Shown here one piece after another: positions 400 through 7,524 of a stretch of 10,711 nt of DNA. This DNA is from an uncultured Ruminococcus sp. (GTDB taxonomy: Bacteria > Bacillota > Clostridia > Oscillospirales > Ruminococcaceae). The notes below the pieces were generated by a model. It saw only the letters and a list, made by a program, of their open reading frames with translations, searched no databases and was not told the origin of the DNA. The stretch covers positions 1 through 10,711 of the forward strand of contig CAMHBN010000046.1 in the NCBI GenBank assembly GCA_946183385.1. Direction: 5' to 3'. A program made the translations under genes and the position numbers. Positions within the stretch are counted from its first letter, which is position 1, and the number at the start of each line of letters is the position of its first letter.

Positions 400-1386
400 A
401 TGGGCATAAAAATACTGGGAATGGGGAGCTACCTTCCCGAACAGACGCTCAAAAACGACGATTTCACGCGCTTCGTCGAGACCAACGACGAGTGGATAAG
501 AACTCGCACGGGCATAGTCGAGAGGCGTATGGCAGGCTGGGAGCCCGTGTGGTATATGGGCTCGGAAGCTGCTAAAAAAGCCATTGCGCAGGCGGGGATA
601 TCTCCTGAGGATATCGGGCTCGTCATCGCGACGACGGCCACCAACGACTTCCACACCCCGAGCGTTGCCTGCATGGTGCAGAGCGAGACGGGCGCGGTCA
701 ATGCCGCAGCGTTCGATATGAACGCCGCGTGCTCGGGCTTCGTTTACGCATTCGATACGGCGCACCGCTTCCTCGCGACTGACAGCAGCCTCAAATACGT
801 GCTCATCGTCGCGGCGGAGGCGCTCTCCCGCTTCCTCGATTTCGGCGACAGGTCGTCGTGCATACTCTTCGGAGACGGCGCGGCGGCGGCAGTCGTGGAG
901 TACAGCGACACGCTCTTCACATCGGGGCTCGGCGCGGACGGAAGCGGCGGACGGCTCCTCTACGCGAGGGCTGTAGGCGTTGCCGAGGAAGTGAAGATAG
1001 ATTCCGATTTCGACGACGGCTTTCCCGAGAAGCGCCTCCACAAGCTGTATCAGGACGGCAAGGAGGTATACAAGTTCGCGACAAAGGCTCTGCCGAAGGC
1101 GTTCCATCTCGCGGCGGACAAGGCGGGCATAGCTCCCGGGGACATCGACTGGTTCGTGCCGCATCAGGCTAATATCCGCATTATCGAGACAGCCGCCAAG
1201 AACCTCGGAGCTCCGATGGAGAAGTTCATCGTGACCCTCGACCACTACGGCAACACCTCGAGCGCGTCGATACCGCTCGCGCTGTGTGAATCCGTCGAGA
1301 AGGGCATAATCAAGCGCGGACAGAAGCTCGCACTCATAGGCTTCGGAGCAGGTCTGACCTACGCGGGTGCGATATTTGAATACTGA
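400..1386 (+). CDS. fabH: Beta-ketoacyl-ACP synthase III (FabH)
   Basis: Condenses an acyl-CoA primer (acetyl- or branched-chain CoA) with malonyl-ACP to begin fatty acid synthesis; cytosolic. The 328-residue length is normal for the family. The full thiolase-fold Cys-His-Asn triad is visible: Cys111 in NAACSGF, His255 in PHQANIR and Asn285 in GNTSSAS. The N-terminal NDEWIRTRTGI (29-39) is the conserved CoA-binding segment, and the C-terminal GFGAGLTY is typical. The ATG is preceded by AAAGGAG (386-392) at a 7-base spacing, which fixes the start. It is the first gene of the cluster seen here, and the deaminase gene starts 1 base after its stop. Whether it prefers straight or branched primers cannot be read from the sequence. 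Confidence 0.97.
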   Translation: MGIKILGMGSYLPEQTLKNDDFTRFVETNDEWIRTRTGIVERRMAGWEPVWYMGSEAAKKAIAQAGISPEDIGLVIATTATNDFHTPSVACMVQSETGAVNAAAFDMNAACSGFVYAFDTAHRFLATDSSLKYVLIVAAEALSRFLDFGDRSSCILFGDGAAAAVVEYSDTLFTSGLGADGSGGRLLYARAVGVAEEVKIDSDFDDGFPEKRLHKLYQDGKEVYKFATKALPKAFHLAADKAGIAPGDIDWFVPHQANIRIIETAAKNLGAPMEKFIVTLDHYGNTSSASIPLALCESVEKGIIKRGQKLALIGFGAGLTYAGAIFEY

Positions 1387-1387
1387 T

Positions 1388-2038
1388 ATGCAGTACGGAG
1401 ACCTCCCCGCCCACTGGAAGCGCATATTCGAGCTCGAATGGCAGTCGGTGTGCGAGGGGAGCAAGGCTATAGCCGCCGTCATCACCGACGCCGACGGGAA
1501 CATCATCTCCGAGGGCAGGAATATGACGGGCGAGCGCACTATACCCAATCCCTCCGCGGCTCATGCCGAGACCGAAGCGGTAAGAGGTCTGGACACGGAG
1601 AGATTCCCCGACAAGCACAGCTATACGCTCCATGCGGGGCTTGAGCCGTGCGTGATGTGCATGGGGACGCTCGTTATGGGCGGGATACGCAATGTCGAGA
1701 TTGCCGCAAGGGACGATTTCGGCGGAGCTATGCACCTGCTCGGCAAGAGCGACTTCACCAGAAACAAGAATATCCGCGTCACGTGGCTCGATAACGAGCT
1801 CGGCGACGTGCAGCGGGCGCTCCAGACGATAAGGGAGCTCCTGTACAACACCGACAGCGCGAAGTTCAGCCGTATGCTGGCGGACTTCGCCGTGCATAAC
1901 TCCGCGGGAGTAAAGGCGGCGCAGGACATGGTCGGGCGCGGAATGTTCAGCGATAAACAGCCCTCGGACTACACCGCGGAAGAGGTGACAGACGAGGCGC
2001 TGAGACTAATAGCCAAATCAAAGGAGGACAACTTATGA
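1388..2038 (+). CDS. CDA/TadA-superfamily nucleoside deaminase-like protein
   Basis: A zinc-dependent deaminase of the cytidine/deoxycytidylate/TadA superfamily, 216 residues from the chosen ATG. The zinc and catalytic signature is complete: His59-Ala-Glu61 in AAHAETEAV, and Cys88 and Cys91 in LEPCVMCMG. The LEPCxMC form resembles COG0590 nucleoside and tRNA-adenosine deaminases, but about 90 residues follow the second cysteine motif, longer than plain TadA. The substrate is therefore not assignable. The ATG lies one base after the fabH stop with no clear ribosome-binding site, so translation is probably coupled. A GTG at 1367, overlapping fabH by 20 bases, is a possible but less likely start. 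Its stop overlaps the fabK start as ATGA. Nothing about its chemistry explains a place between fabH and fabK. Confidence 0.85.
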   Translation: MQYGDLPAHWKRIFELEWQSVCEGSKAIAAVITDADGNIISEGRNMTGERTIPNPSAAHAETEAVRGLDTERFPDKHSYTLHAGLEPCVMCMGTLVMGGIRNVEIAARDDFGGAMHLLGKSDFTRNKNIRVTWLDNELGDVQRALQTIRELLYNTDSAKFSRMLADFAVHNSAGVKAAQDMVGRGMFSDKQPSDYTAEEVTDEALRLIAKSKEDNL

Positions 2039-5259: not shown

Positions 5260-5727
5260 ATGAACGAGATATTCGGCATGACCGACCTTGACACGATAAG
5301 CAGCCTTGCAGACATAATCAACGACAAGGAGCTTTCGGAGATAACGATAACAGAGGGCGGCAGAACTATAACTATCAAGGGCAAGAAGTGCGTACCCGCA
5401 CCCCTTATGGGTATGCCTCCGATGCCTCCGATGGGGGCAGGTGCTCCCGAGCCTCAGCCGCAGGCGGCTCCCGTGAAGGACGAGGCTAACGGCGGCAACA
5501 TCGTGAAGGCGCCCATAGTGGGCACGTACTACCGCTCGCCCTCGCCCGACAAGCCGCCGTTCGTGAAGATAGGCGACAAGGTCAAGAAGGGCGACGTCAT
5601 CATGATAATCGAGTCGATGAAGCTGATGAACGAGGTGCAGTCCGAGTTCGACGGCGTTGTCGAGCGCATACTCGTTGCCGACGGGCAGGCTGTTGAGTTC
5701 GACCAGCCCATAATGATAATCAAATGA
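5260..5727 (+). CDS. accB: Biotin carboxyl carrier protein of acetyl-CoA carboxylase (AccB)
   Basis: Carries the biotin that shuttles carboxyl groups between biotin carboxylase and carboxyltransferase. 155 residues, typical. The N-terminal domain (about 1-45) is followed by a flexible Pro/Met/Ala-rich linker (about 46-76), then the C-terminal biotinyl/lipoyl beta-barrel domain from about residue 80. The biotinylated lysine is Lys121 in ESMKLMNEV. The barrel begins with the conserved IVKAPIVGTYYRSPSPD (81-97). AAGGAG (5246-5251) overlaps the fabF stop, with 8 bases to the ATG. Its stop overlaps the start of an unknown membrane protein as ATGA, which is unusual: in related clusters accB is followed directly by fabZ. 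Confidence 0.97.
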   Translation: MNEIFGMTDLDTISSLADIINDKELSEITITEGGRTITIKGKKCVPAPLMGMPPMPPMGAGAPEPQPQAAPVKDEANGGNIVKAPIVGTYYRSPSPDKPPFVKIGDKVKKGDVIMIIESMKLMNEVQSEFDGVVERILVADGQAVEFDQPIMIIK

Positions 5728-6347
5728 GGCTGTCGGAGCTTACCTACATCACGCAGAACATCATTGACAAGGGCACCTTCAACGTCACCTCGCCCGAGAT
5801 GATGGACGAGGCGCGCCGCTACAATATGGCAATGGTGACGAATGCCGCAGAAAAGCGCCGCGTCGATGTCATTACGGGTATATGGTTCATCGTGCATCTG
5901 CCTCTTCCGCTCGCATGGGTCTGCTTTATGCTGGCAACACAAACGCTTGCCGATATGGGCTTCTACGCCGCGGGCGATTTCGGACGGATAATGACCTATG
6001 CGGCTATCGCGGCGGTGTTTCTCGGACTTGTCGCGTACTACGGACTTTTCGGCTACTACATCATATTCAGGTTCCAGCGCGACCCGAAGCTGGTAATGCT
6101 TTGCTCGCTTCCCGTTCTTCTGGCGGTGTTCCCGCTGGGTTTCCTTATAGTCGCGGTAAACGTGATAATGGCGTGGTGGTACACCAAAACGGACGAGAAG
6201 CTCTCGCATGAGGCGGGCTATCCCGCGTTCGTGCGGCTCAACGTCACTACCGTCGAGAGTGACGCCCACAGCGTGCTCGACCTCACTTACGACAGTATAA
6301 AGGAGCGCACCAGGCACCGGCGTTCGGAGGGAGATGAATTCCTGTGA
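5724..6347 (+). CDS. Unknown membrane protein, first of a paralogous pair
   Basis: I do not recognise a family for this 207-residue protein. A polar N-terminal segment (1-48) precedes hydrophobic stretches at about 49-72, 89-116 and 121-153. The last is long enough to be one or two spans, so there are three or four spans in all. Basic residues at 44-46 before the first span suggest a cytoplasmic N-terminus. A charged tail (about 154-207) contains EAGYPAFVRL. It is clearly related to the next gene: YIT at 8-10, NVTS at 20-23, EM at 25-26, EA at 29-30, NMxM at 34-37 and D120 fall at identical positions, and GYPxFV is offset by one. The ATG overlaps the accB stop (ATGA) with no ribosome-binding site, so it is probably translated by coupling to accB. 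A role at the membrane with the carboxylase or FASII enzymes is only a guess. Confidence 0.8.
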   Translation: MRLSELTYITQNIIDKGTFNVTSPEMMDEARRYNMAMVTNAAEKRRVDVITGIWFIVHLPLPLAWVCFMLATQTLADMGFYAAGDFGRIMTYAAIAAVFLGLVAYYGLFGYYIIFRFQRDPKLVMLCSLPVLLAVFPLGFLIVAVNVIMAWWYTKTDEKLSHEAGYPAFVRLNVTTVESDAHSVLDLTYDSIKERTRHRRSEGDEFL

Positions 6348-7066
6348 CGATACAAGACCTCAAATACATAACGCCGCTCGATATTCAGGCGGCTTACCTC
6401 AACGTCACCTCCTCGGAGATGTACGCCGAGGCTAAGGATTTCAATATGCACATGTACGATATGCAGAGGAAGCGCTGGAGATTCATGCGCGACTTCTGGC
6501 TGATGGTGGTGTTCAACGTCATCATGCTCGCGCTCGGTGTCCTTTCCGCGGCGAGCTCGTATACGTCCCTGCTGTTCTATGTTTCGGGCGGCAGAGGACC
6601 GCTGGGCTTCACTACGGGCGGAAATATGTTTGTAACGCTGTTTCCCGTGCCGATATACATCGTCCTGTTCGTGTGGCTCGTACTGATAAGGAAGATGTAC
6701 GATTCGCGGCTCGTGCTGGTGATAAGTCTAATGCTCTTTCCAGTGAACTACGGTTTCATCGGACTGACGATAGCAAACGTTATCCTCATCGGAGCAATGA
6801 ATAAAGTCGATAACGAGATAAAGGACGAGGTCGGCTATCCGCATTTCGTGGAGCTGACGCTGTCGTACATACGCGACGAGGAAAACGCCGAGGAAGGCGG
6901 CATGGAGAGCTACAGCGAGGAAGAGGCGACCGACGACCTCATCAGCGAGCGCAAGGAGAATCCCTTCGACAAGTACCGCACACGCTGGGCTGACGGCGAG
7001 GGCTCGATGCTCGCGGACAACGACATCAGCGCTGTAATAAATGGAAATAACATAGCTAAGGAGTAA
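6344..7066 (+). CDS. Unknown membrane protein, second of a paralogous pair
   Basis: Unrecognised 240-residue membrane protein, a diverged tandem copy of the preceding gene. It keeps the N-terminal pattern YIT...NVTSSEM..EA...NMHM (8-37), the DxxLV entry to the last hydrophobic region (120-124) and VGYPHFVEL after it (163-171). Hydrophobic spans lie at about 51-70, 97-115 and 122-151. It differs by having about 60 extra C-terminal residues (180-240) that are acidic first (EEENAEEGG-like composition, SEEEATDD) and then mixed polar, likely cytoplasmic and disordered. The start is GTG, overlapping the previous stop as GTGA; a purine-rich GGAGGGAG lies at 6326-6333. The fabZ ribosome-binding site overlaps its last codons. 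No catalytic motif is visible. Confidence 0.8.
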   Translation: MTIQDLKYITPLDIQAAYLNVTSSEMYAEAKDFNMHMYDMQRKRWRFMRDFWLMVVFNVIMLALGVLSAASSYTSLLFYVSGGRGPLGFTTGGNMFVTLFPVPIYIVLFVWLVLIRKMYDSRLVLVISLMLFPVNYGFIGLTIANVILIGAMNKVDNEIKDEVGYPHFVELTLSYIRDEENAEEGGMESYSEEEATDDLISERKENPFDKYRTRWADGEGSMLADNDISAVINGNNIAKE

Positions 7067-7071
7067 AAACT

Positions 7072-7524
7072 ATGTCTGATATACTTATGAATAAAGAGCA
7101 GATAATGGAGATAATCCCTCACCGCGACCCCTTCCTCCTCATCGACGAGATAGTGGACATGGAGGTCGGCGTGAAGGTTCACGCCCGCAAGTACATCAAG
7201 GAGGACGACTTCTGGTTCAAGGGGCACTTCCCCGGTTATCCCGTGACTCCGGGTGTGCTGATGGTGGAGATGCTCGCACAGGCGGGAGCTGTATGTATGC
7301 TCTCAAAGCCCGAATTCAAGGGCAAGATAGGTCTGTTCGGCGGCATCGACAAGGCTAAGTTCCGCAGACAGGTAGTCCCCGGCGACGTGCTCGACCTCGA
7401 GGTCGAGATGATCAAGCAGAGAGGACCTATCGGTACTGGCAGGGCTCTGGCGTCGGTAGGCGGAGAGAGAGCCGTATCCTGCGAGATAACTTTTGTAGTT
7501 ACTGACGGAGACAAGGAGCAGTAA
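7072..7524 (+). CDS. fabZ: 3-hydroxyacyl-ACP dehydratase (FabZ)
   Basis: Dehydrates 3-hydroxyacyl-ACP to trans-2-enoyl-ACP. A single hot-dog domain of 150 residues, normal for FabZ. The catalytic His52 lies in FKGHFPGYPVTPG and Glu66 in VLMVEMLAQAG; IIPHRDPFLLID (14-25) is the characteristic N-terminal FabZ motif. TAAGGAG (7057-7063) is eight bases from the ATG and abuts the stop of the second membrane protein, so the two are probably co-translated. FabZ normally does not isomerise the double bond, though the FabN branch of this family does. Residues alone do not tell me whether this enzyme can, and it is the only dehydratase in the window. Confidence 0.96.
   Translation: MSDILMNKEQIMEIIPHRDPFLLIDEIVDMEVGVKVHARKYIKEDDFWFKGHFPGYPVTPGVLMVEMLAQAGAVCMLSKPEFKGKIGLFGGIDKAKFRRQVVPGDVLDLEVEMIKQRGPIGTGRALASVGGERAVSCEITFVVTDGDKEQ

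Follow-up and report, generated by a model that had tools for sequence, protein, structure and literature searches.

In the genus Ruminococcus, the junction between accB and fabZ is the main home of small integral membrane proteins whose family is, as judged by profile searches, undescribed, new and well bounded; its first copy there usually starts on the accB stop codon. Our favoured, still tentative, reading is that the two members found here, memA and memB, constitute an AccB-coupled membrane accessory of acetyl-CoA carboxylase (ACC) and FASII, likely a tether or brake, with a putative contact to AccB. Nearly as likely is the main rival, in which a generic membrane protein only borrows its place in the operon.

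The window, that is, the whole 10,711-nt stretch of DNA analysed, carries a FASII cluster in the order fabH, deaminase-like gene, fabK, fabG, fabF, accB, memA, memB, fabZ, accC, accD and accA. Product names come from a Pfam scan of 8 of the 12 window ORFs (memA, memB and six others). The six non-mem proteins in that scan were FASII, deaminase-like or nitronate-monooxygenase-like, fabK having a nitronate monooxygenase domain; fabG, fabF, accD and accA are what we take the remaining genes to be from their sequences. The genome of origin (334 contigs totalling 2.1 Mb, 75% complete) is of Ruminococcus type; its nearest named records are R. flavefaciens YRD2003 and Ruminococcus metagenome-assembled genomes, several of which were sampled in the rumen. 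A first-pass annotation, made from the letters alone, had placed two adjacent membrane-protein genes between accB and fabZ, and both are present there as ORFs:

5260..5727, + strand: accB, biotin carboxyl carrier protein of acetyl-CoA carboxylase (Pfam PF00364, E = 5.3e-22)
5724..5727, + strand: ATGA, 4-nt overlap of the memA start with the accB stop, proposed termination–reinitiation site; no upstream Shine-Dalgarno sequence, best duplex +0.6 kcal/mol (sequence)
5724..6347, + strand: memA (class A), 207 aa, with a conserved N-terminal segment of about 50 residues, 3–4 hydrophobic spans and a GYPxF box (ORF, family alignment)
5724..5873, + strand: conserved N-terminal segment of memA, YITxxxI...NVTSxEMxxEAxxYN (family alignment)
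6216..6233, + strand: GYPAFV box of memA, past the last span (sequence)
6326..6333, + strand: GGAGGGAG, Shine-Dalgarno site of memB, duplex -9.7 kcal/mol (sequence and duplex energy)
6344..6347, + strand: GTGA, 4-nt overlap of the memB start with the memA stop (sequence)
6344..7066, + strand: memB (class B), GTG start, 240 aa, memA-like architecture with a longer acidic tail containing MLADNDI (ORF, alignment, structure model)
6833..6850, + strand: GYPHFV box of memB, past the last span (sequence)
7072..7524, + strand: fabZ, which closes the slot on the right and has a Shine-Dalgarno site of its own (Pfam PF07977, E = 1.6e-28)

The annotation had been unable to assign either protein to a family, and profile searches of both agree. 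Pfam, searched at E ≤ 1, returned no family (best E values 0.19 and 0.4), NCBIfam gave no match over its curated cut-offs (best E 0.23) and PDB sequences gave no significant match (best E 0.62). Fold searches with a memB model (mean pLDDT 73) returned no trustworthy match, and an Rfam search at the gathering threshold found no RNA element. Named relatives in the sources were all 'hypothetical protein', and a search of open-licence papers found none on the memA/memB family.

memA and memB had been described as diverged duplicates, and their homology indeed lies well above chance: a phmmer search of their own genome linked them at E = 3.2e-15, profile–profile comparison gave a probability of 99.7 and E = 1.6e-26 over 175 columns, and their Smith–Waterman score is 172, whereas 1,000 locally shuffled controls averaged 36.7 and never exceeded 74. 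The shared motifs reported earlier are real as well, with identical residues in the two proteins at positions 8–10, 20–23, 25–26, 29–30, 34–35, 37, 120 and 123–124, and with GYPxFV past the last span in both, starting at residue 165 in memA and 164 in memB. Conservation was claimed to reside in the N-terminus and the post-membrane segment and not in the spans. Consistent with this, column entropy in the A family averaged 0.67 in the N-terminus, 0.82 in the post-membrane segment (35 columns) and 1.37 in the spans, and in the B family 0.76, 0.90 and 1.52, respectively. The family means of A and of B each showed three main hydrophobic segments.

From these conserved parts the annotation had gone on to propose a docking surface, which is not supported as stated. 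The memB structure model (60 sequences, mean pLDDT 73, pTM 0.54) has a short strand at residues 18–21, a long helix at 24–68 that runs into the first span, helices until 159 and a strand at 172–175, past the GYPxF box; we infer that the two strands pair with each other. Among the 60 strongest long-range covarying pairs, 19 link the N-terminus to the post-membrane segment, where the share of pairs that the two segments make up predicts 8.4, in a set of 122 sequences that excludes class C and pools classes A and B without correction for the class split. Because the model places strands in both segments and the segments covary, the two probably form one module, and both may simply be parts of a plain folded unit.

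To place the pair in its genus, we surveyed 125 Ruminococcus genomes and read the accB–fabZ junction in the 117 that have both genes on one contig. Forty-eight held one to three copies of the family, 56 had no ORF of at least 100 aa, 11 held a 177-aa protein and 2 some other ORF. The eight genomes outside this count comprise five with no fabZ match (G015, G019, G035, G083 and G107), two in which accB was not found on the piece (G091 and G115) and one (G030) whose slot is divided between two contigs, the ends of which carry a B copy and pieces of a C copy. Gaps at the 56 empty slots had a median of 26 nt (range 11 to 637 nt). A gene tree of 94 copies, with many long branches, resolved three classes, A, B and C, and their order was constant: A comes first, B comes first or after A, and C comes last, before fabZ. 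The occupied slots were of the types AB (19), AA (9, including G043, whose second copy is a broken piece of ~120 aa), B (7), BC (6), C (4), A (2) and BCC (1); the class C call for the slot copy of G087 (163 aa, on a long branch) is uncertain. A heteromeric A-plus-B pair, as the annotation had envisaged, is not obligatory, since 19 AB slots stand against 9 AA, 13 with a single copy and 7 with B and C. The A profile matched 55 of the 125 genomes and a broad profile 69 at E ≤ 1e-4, its weaker matches being distant relatives; one match, L062, was rejected as false, reflecting hydrophobic similarity only. In one genome (G044) there were two slots, one on a 3.5-kb contig with B and an incomplete A (L213, G044:C47), which is kept out of the slot count, and one with BCC on the main contig (L045, G044:C7), from either a mixed assembly or a second cluster.

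FASII clusters were said to run normally straight from accB to fabZ, and within the taxonomic family they do: accB adjoins fabZ in 28/28 loci from other genera, with a gap of at most 250 nt in 27 (the check covered 28 of the 82 genomes of other genera in which fabZ was matched). The one wider gap, in a single genome, contains an ORF that we take to be lipase-like (L239:659-1468). Within Ruminococcus, ORFs of at least 100 aa occurred in 61/117 accB–fabZ junctions, compared with 0/117 at fabF–accB, 5/117 at fabZ–accC, 0/98 at accC–accD, 0/45 at accD–accA, 1/115 at fabG–fabF, 4/103 at fabH–fabK and 13/107 at fabK–fabG. Random genomic positions in relatives had been named as what would speak against a FASII link; the family sits mostly in this acc/fab slot (48/117 genomes, other junctions holding an ORF in 0 to 13), although ten genomes have an off-cluster copy. 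The in-cluster pair is narrower in distribution than the annotation had assumed: it was found in the single genus Ruminococcus, and family- and order-level searches returned only distant relatives elsewhere, which are undercounted because the search profile scored only 8 candidates per genome.

The first copy in the slot is tied closely to accB. In 40 of 48 genomes its start and the accB stop overlap, the shared stretch being 1 nt long in 29 and 4 nt in 11; in the remaining 8 the start lay 2 to 48 nt past the stop. A Shine-Dalgarno sequence (duplex with the 16S tail of ≤ -4 kcal/mol) preceded 2/49 first copies, 48/48 fabZ and 48/49 accB genes, these counts being derived from printed fractions and the accB start being taken as the start of the tblastn match; the rate was 69% for 36 second copies and 21% for 539 internal control windows. 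Part of this deficit follows from the overlap itself, as the region upstream of first copies is accB coding sequence. memA shows both features by which accB-coupled slot proteins were defined, the ATGA overlap and the lack of a Shine-Dalgarno site (duplex +0.6). Given the overlap and the missing site, memA translation should depend on ribosomes that finish accB, and so should be coupled to accB. The annotation had singled out this pair as its best candidate for an undescribed component, and the family searches bear it out as undescribed, while the overlap in 40/48 and the Shine-Dalgarno sites in only 2/49 support an accB-coupled start.

To follow the history of the slot, we used a species tree of 116 genomes built from fabF, fabG, fabZ and accC. 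Slot state changed at least 9 times for the family and 12 times for any occupant. Together with the constant place and class order, this suggests either long-standing occupancy that was lost several times or swapping at one and the same site. Off-cluster copies were present in G045, G046 (known from its search row alone), G058, G061, G069, G074, G087, G101, G106 and G109, and eight of these ten genomes have no family member in the slot. The eight off-cluster copies placed in the gene tree all fell on the class B side, seven of them in one clade, on a tree with many long branches; relocation out of the slot fits better than the reverse. In a recombination scan of 8 pairs, the nearly identical clusters L108 (G123), whose slot holds the 177-aa protein, and L104 (G073), whose slot is empty, had fabF, fabZ and accC DNA 91–96% alike and the first 150 nt of accB only 73% alike, a pattern resembling an exchange of the accB start.

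The family changes fast yet is constrained. Where fabF is 80–90% identical, median identities were 38% for memA, 39% for memB and 37% for memC (319, 452 and 46 pairs), compared with 71% for accB and 93% for fabZ. Median dN/dS was 0.13 (N-terminus 0.08, spans 0.16, C-terminal part 0.125) across 39 close pairs that are not independent of one another, indicating purifying selection in close pairs. In mirror-tree partial correlations accB was not the highest partner of either class, with fabF top in both (class B: accB 0.25, fabF 0.62; class A: accB 0.03, fabF 0.38).

The junction has a second recurrent occupant. A 177-aa protein family was found in 12 of the 125 genomes, in 11 at accB–fabZ and in G115 beside fabZ at a contig end (L117:4484-5014, L118:1979-2509; slot in G005, G036, G038, G084, G092, G094, G109, G111, G115 and G123). 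In ten of these 11 the start lies 0 or 5 nt away from the end of accB and has no Shine-Dalgarno site; in G005 the assigned start lies 70 nt in, and is misplaced or leaves the N-terminus missing. The protein had no predicted spans, did not match the membrane-family profiles and gave nothing over cut-off in Pfam or NCBIfam. Its structure model was mostly strands (mean pLDDT 56, too weak for a fold search). As far as seen, it is soluble and unrelated to the mem family. Its identity is 79% between G095 and the distant G123 and 51% between G095 and the close G084, which suggests transfer from lineage to lineage. That one coupled place has taken in two unlike proteins is our best circumstantial evidence that the place matters.

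Several of these results favour, as a tentative choice, the reading of memA and memB as an AccB-coupled accessory of ACC: slot residence in 48/117 genomes with ORFs rarer at the other junctions, the coupled start without a Shine-Dalgarno site, the constant class order, the class B placement of the off-cluster copies, which fits movement out of the slot, the dN/dS of 0.13 and the 177-aa protein in the same coupled place. The association with AccB type points the same way. AccB N-domains, called by regular expression with one genome undetermined, are of two types, ETIEKLADI...KGK and xCNLTLEEI...IKIKNGD...IE; the slot is occupied in 57/101 genomes with type I and 1/15 with type II. As only 2 changes on the tree support this association, we note that its direction is right for an ACC link and do not use it as proof.

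Under the accessory reading, termination–reinitiation would allow the first mem protein to be made only when AccB is made, with AccB and a membrane protein appearing together. The N-terminal and post-membrane module, taken as cytoplasmic, would hold AccB, or the AccBC half of ACC, at the membrane; acting as tether or brake, it would tune malonyl-CoA supply to membrane growth, and the A, B and C paralogs would serve as alternative subunits. Other results weigh against it. The off-cluster copies in ten genomes, together with relatives beside non-FASII genes, argue against an ACC-only role; the mirror-tree analysis, having no special AccB signal, argues against an AccB tether; and the slot being empty in 56/117 genomes makes the family dispensable in those species.

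Two known ACC accessory systems offer partial parallels. CTI (carboxyltransferase interactor) proteins of plants, with cyanobacterial relatives, are reported to dock heteromeric ACC at the envelope membrane and to lower fatty acid synthesis (PMC7712654). Like memA and memB, they are small membrane proteins of a small paralogous family (PMC7712654); one membrane span, a coiled-coil domain and binding to alpha-CT (PMC7712654) set CTI apart from memA and memB, with their 3–4 hydrophobic segments and putative ACC binding. YqhY, an Asp23-family protein encoded in the accBC-yqhY operon of Firmicutes, has been proposed as an ACC regulator in B. subtilis (PMC5437119), and shares with memA and memB the position of an accessory gene inside an acc operon (PMC5437119). 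YqhY is an Asp23-domain protein (PMC5437119), whereas neither memA nor memB matched Asp23 (PF03780) in Pfam at E ≤ 1. By the features compared, memA and memB are not members of CTI or YqhY. Asp23 genes occurred in 125/125 surveyed Ruminococcus genomes, which makes simple replacement of a lost Asp23/YqhY slot resident unlikely. Little is known of how Gram-positive bacteria match ACC to the growth of their membranes, and the 2017 YqhY paper states in its abstract that no such control had been identified in B. subtilis (PMC5437119). A mem family made in step with AccB would be a direct, testable candidate for ACC control in major rumen bacteria, with the swap of the 177-aa protein into the same slot as a natural control.

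The main rival is that memA and memB belong to a wider superfamily within the same taxonomic family, defined by 3–4 spans, a G[YF]PxF box and an acidic tail, whose members would all share a function and a partner; the slot would then merely scale their amount to fatty acid synthesis, with no ACC contact. We rate this only a little less probable than the accessory reading. The G[YF]PxF box past the last span was present in 36/38 class A, 35/35 class B and 11/13 class C copies, in 8/8 orphans and in 17/18 members of a set of genus relatives named for a YfcE-like neighbour. Of the 16 loci of this YfcE set (L162, L163 and L165–L178), 13 adjoin a gene for a YfcE-like phosphodiesterase, assigned by eye, with a MRIIVISDTHGN-type start of the YfcE-like gene (also by eye) and a mem tail that is mostly M[DE][DEST][IL]; three further loci of relatives with the box (L159–L161) adjoin rnf-like genes. 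Neighbour names here (YfcE-like, rnf-like, gyrB, thymidine phosphorylase-like, zinc-ribbon-like and lipase-like) were read from sequence by eye and are what we take these genes to be. Twenty stretches were read among the weak broad-profile matches. In other genera of the taxonomic family, relatives lay in various places. Comparison of the mem family with profiles of these GYPxF relatives gave E values of 4.8e-12, 1.1e-11, 4.9e-17 and 5.6e-11, which are one-against-one values that membrane composition may help.

The relatives beside YfcE-like, rnf-like and other genes resemble memA and memB in size, spans and the G[YF]PxF box, and the YfcE set also shares its tail ending with class C: M[DE][DEST][IL] closes 12/13 class C copies and 15/18 of the YfcE set. 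Class A tails end in [FM]L plus at most one residue (35/38), and class B tails are of the xLxDNDI type (28/35). The relatives that were read differ in having no YIT...NxTSxEM N-terminus in that form and in lying outside FASII clusters. This wider family argues for either a function beyond ACC or a module fitted to several operons. The profile links, the relocated copies and the common tail ending, which hints at a partner outside ACC, all sit well with a generic protein. That explanation leaves unexplained, however, the genus-wide persistence of the slot and its coupled start, and the presence of the unlike 177-aa protein in the same coupled place.

A bolder form of the accessory reading, which we regard as doubtful, would make the end of accB a translational-coupling slot for exchangeable ACC accessory subunits, with multi-span membrane tethers (A, B and C) in about 40% of the surveyed genomes and an unrelated-looking, beta-rich soluble protein in about a tenth. 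If true, bacteria would anchor the committed step of fatty acid synthesis to the membrane, and two dissimilar proteins would have arrived convergently in one coupled place.

That the junction is instead a permissive insertion spot, where recombination replaces tolerated cargo that has nothing to do with FASII, we consider unlikely. The slot state did change at least 9 times on the species tree, the cargo is varied (the membrane family, the 177-aa protein, two other ORFs and the lipase-like ORF of another genus), and the identities of the 177-aa protein (G095/G123 79%, G095/G084 51%) suggest transfer; yet other junctions are far less filled, a coupled start without a Shine-Dalgarno site and a constant class order are unlike chance cargo, and dN/dS is 0.13. 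Finally, an envelope sensor or defence factor driven by conflict, for example with phages or bacteriocins, would account for the fast divergence (38–39% identity where fabF is 80–90%) and patchy presence but is highly improbable given the low dN/dS, lowest in the N-terminus, a PADLOC scan of memA, memB, one class C copy and the 177-aa protein that gave nothing of note (best E 0.065), and the six other Pfam-scanned window proteins, which are FASII, deaminase-like or nitronate-monooxygenase-like.

Other junctions of the cluster held recurrent small proteins of their own. At fabZ–accC, five of 117 genomes (G003, G023, G071, G099 and G104; L079, L075, L040, L076 and L048) encode a protein of ~126 aa with two predicted spans. 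At fabK–fabG, a protein of ~130–150 aa with a presumably zinc-ribbon-like CPVCG start was found in G045, G058, G084, G111 and G112, and thus in at least five of the 13 genomes (among 107) with an ORF there. The deaminase-like gene of the window (1367–2038; PF14437/PF00383) overlaps both fabH and fabK; only 4/103 genomes have an ORF at this junction, three of them deaminase-like by eye.
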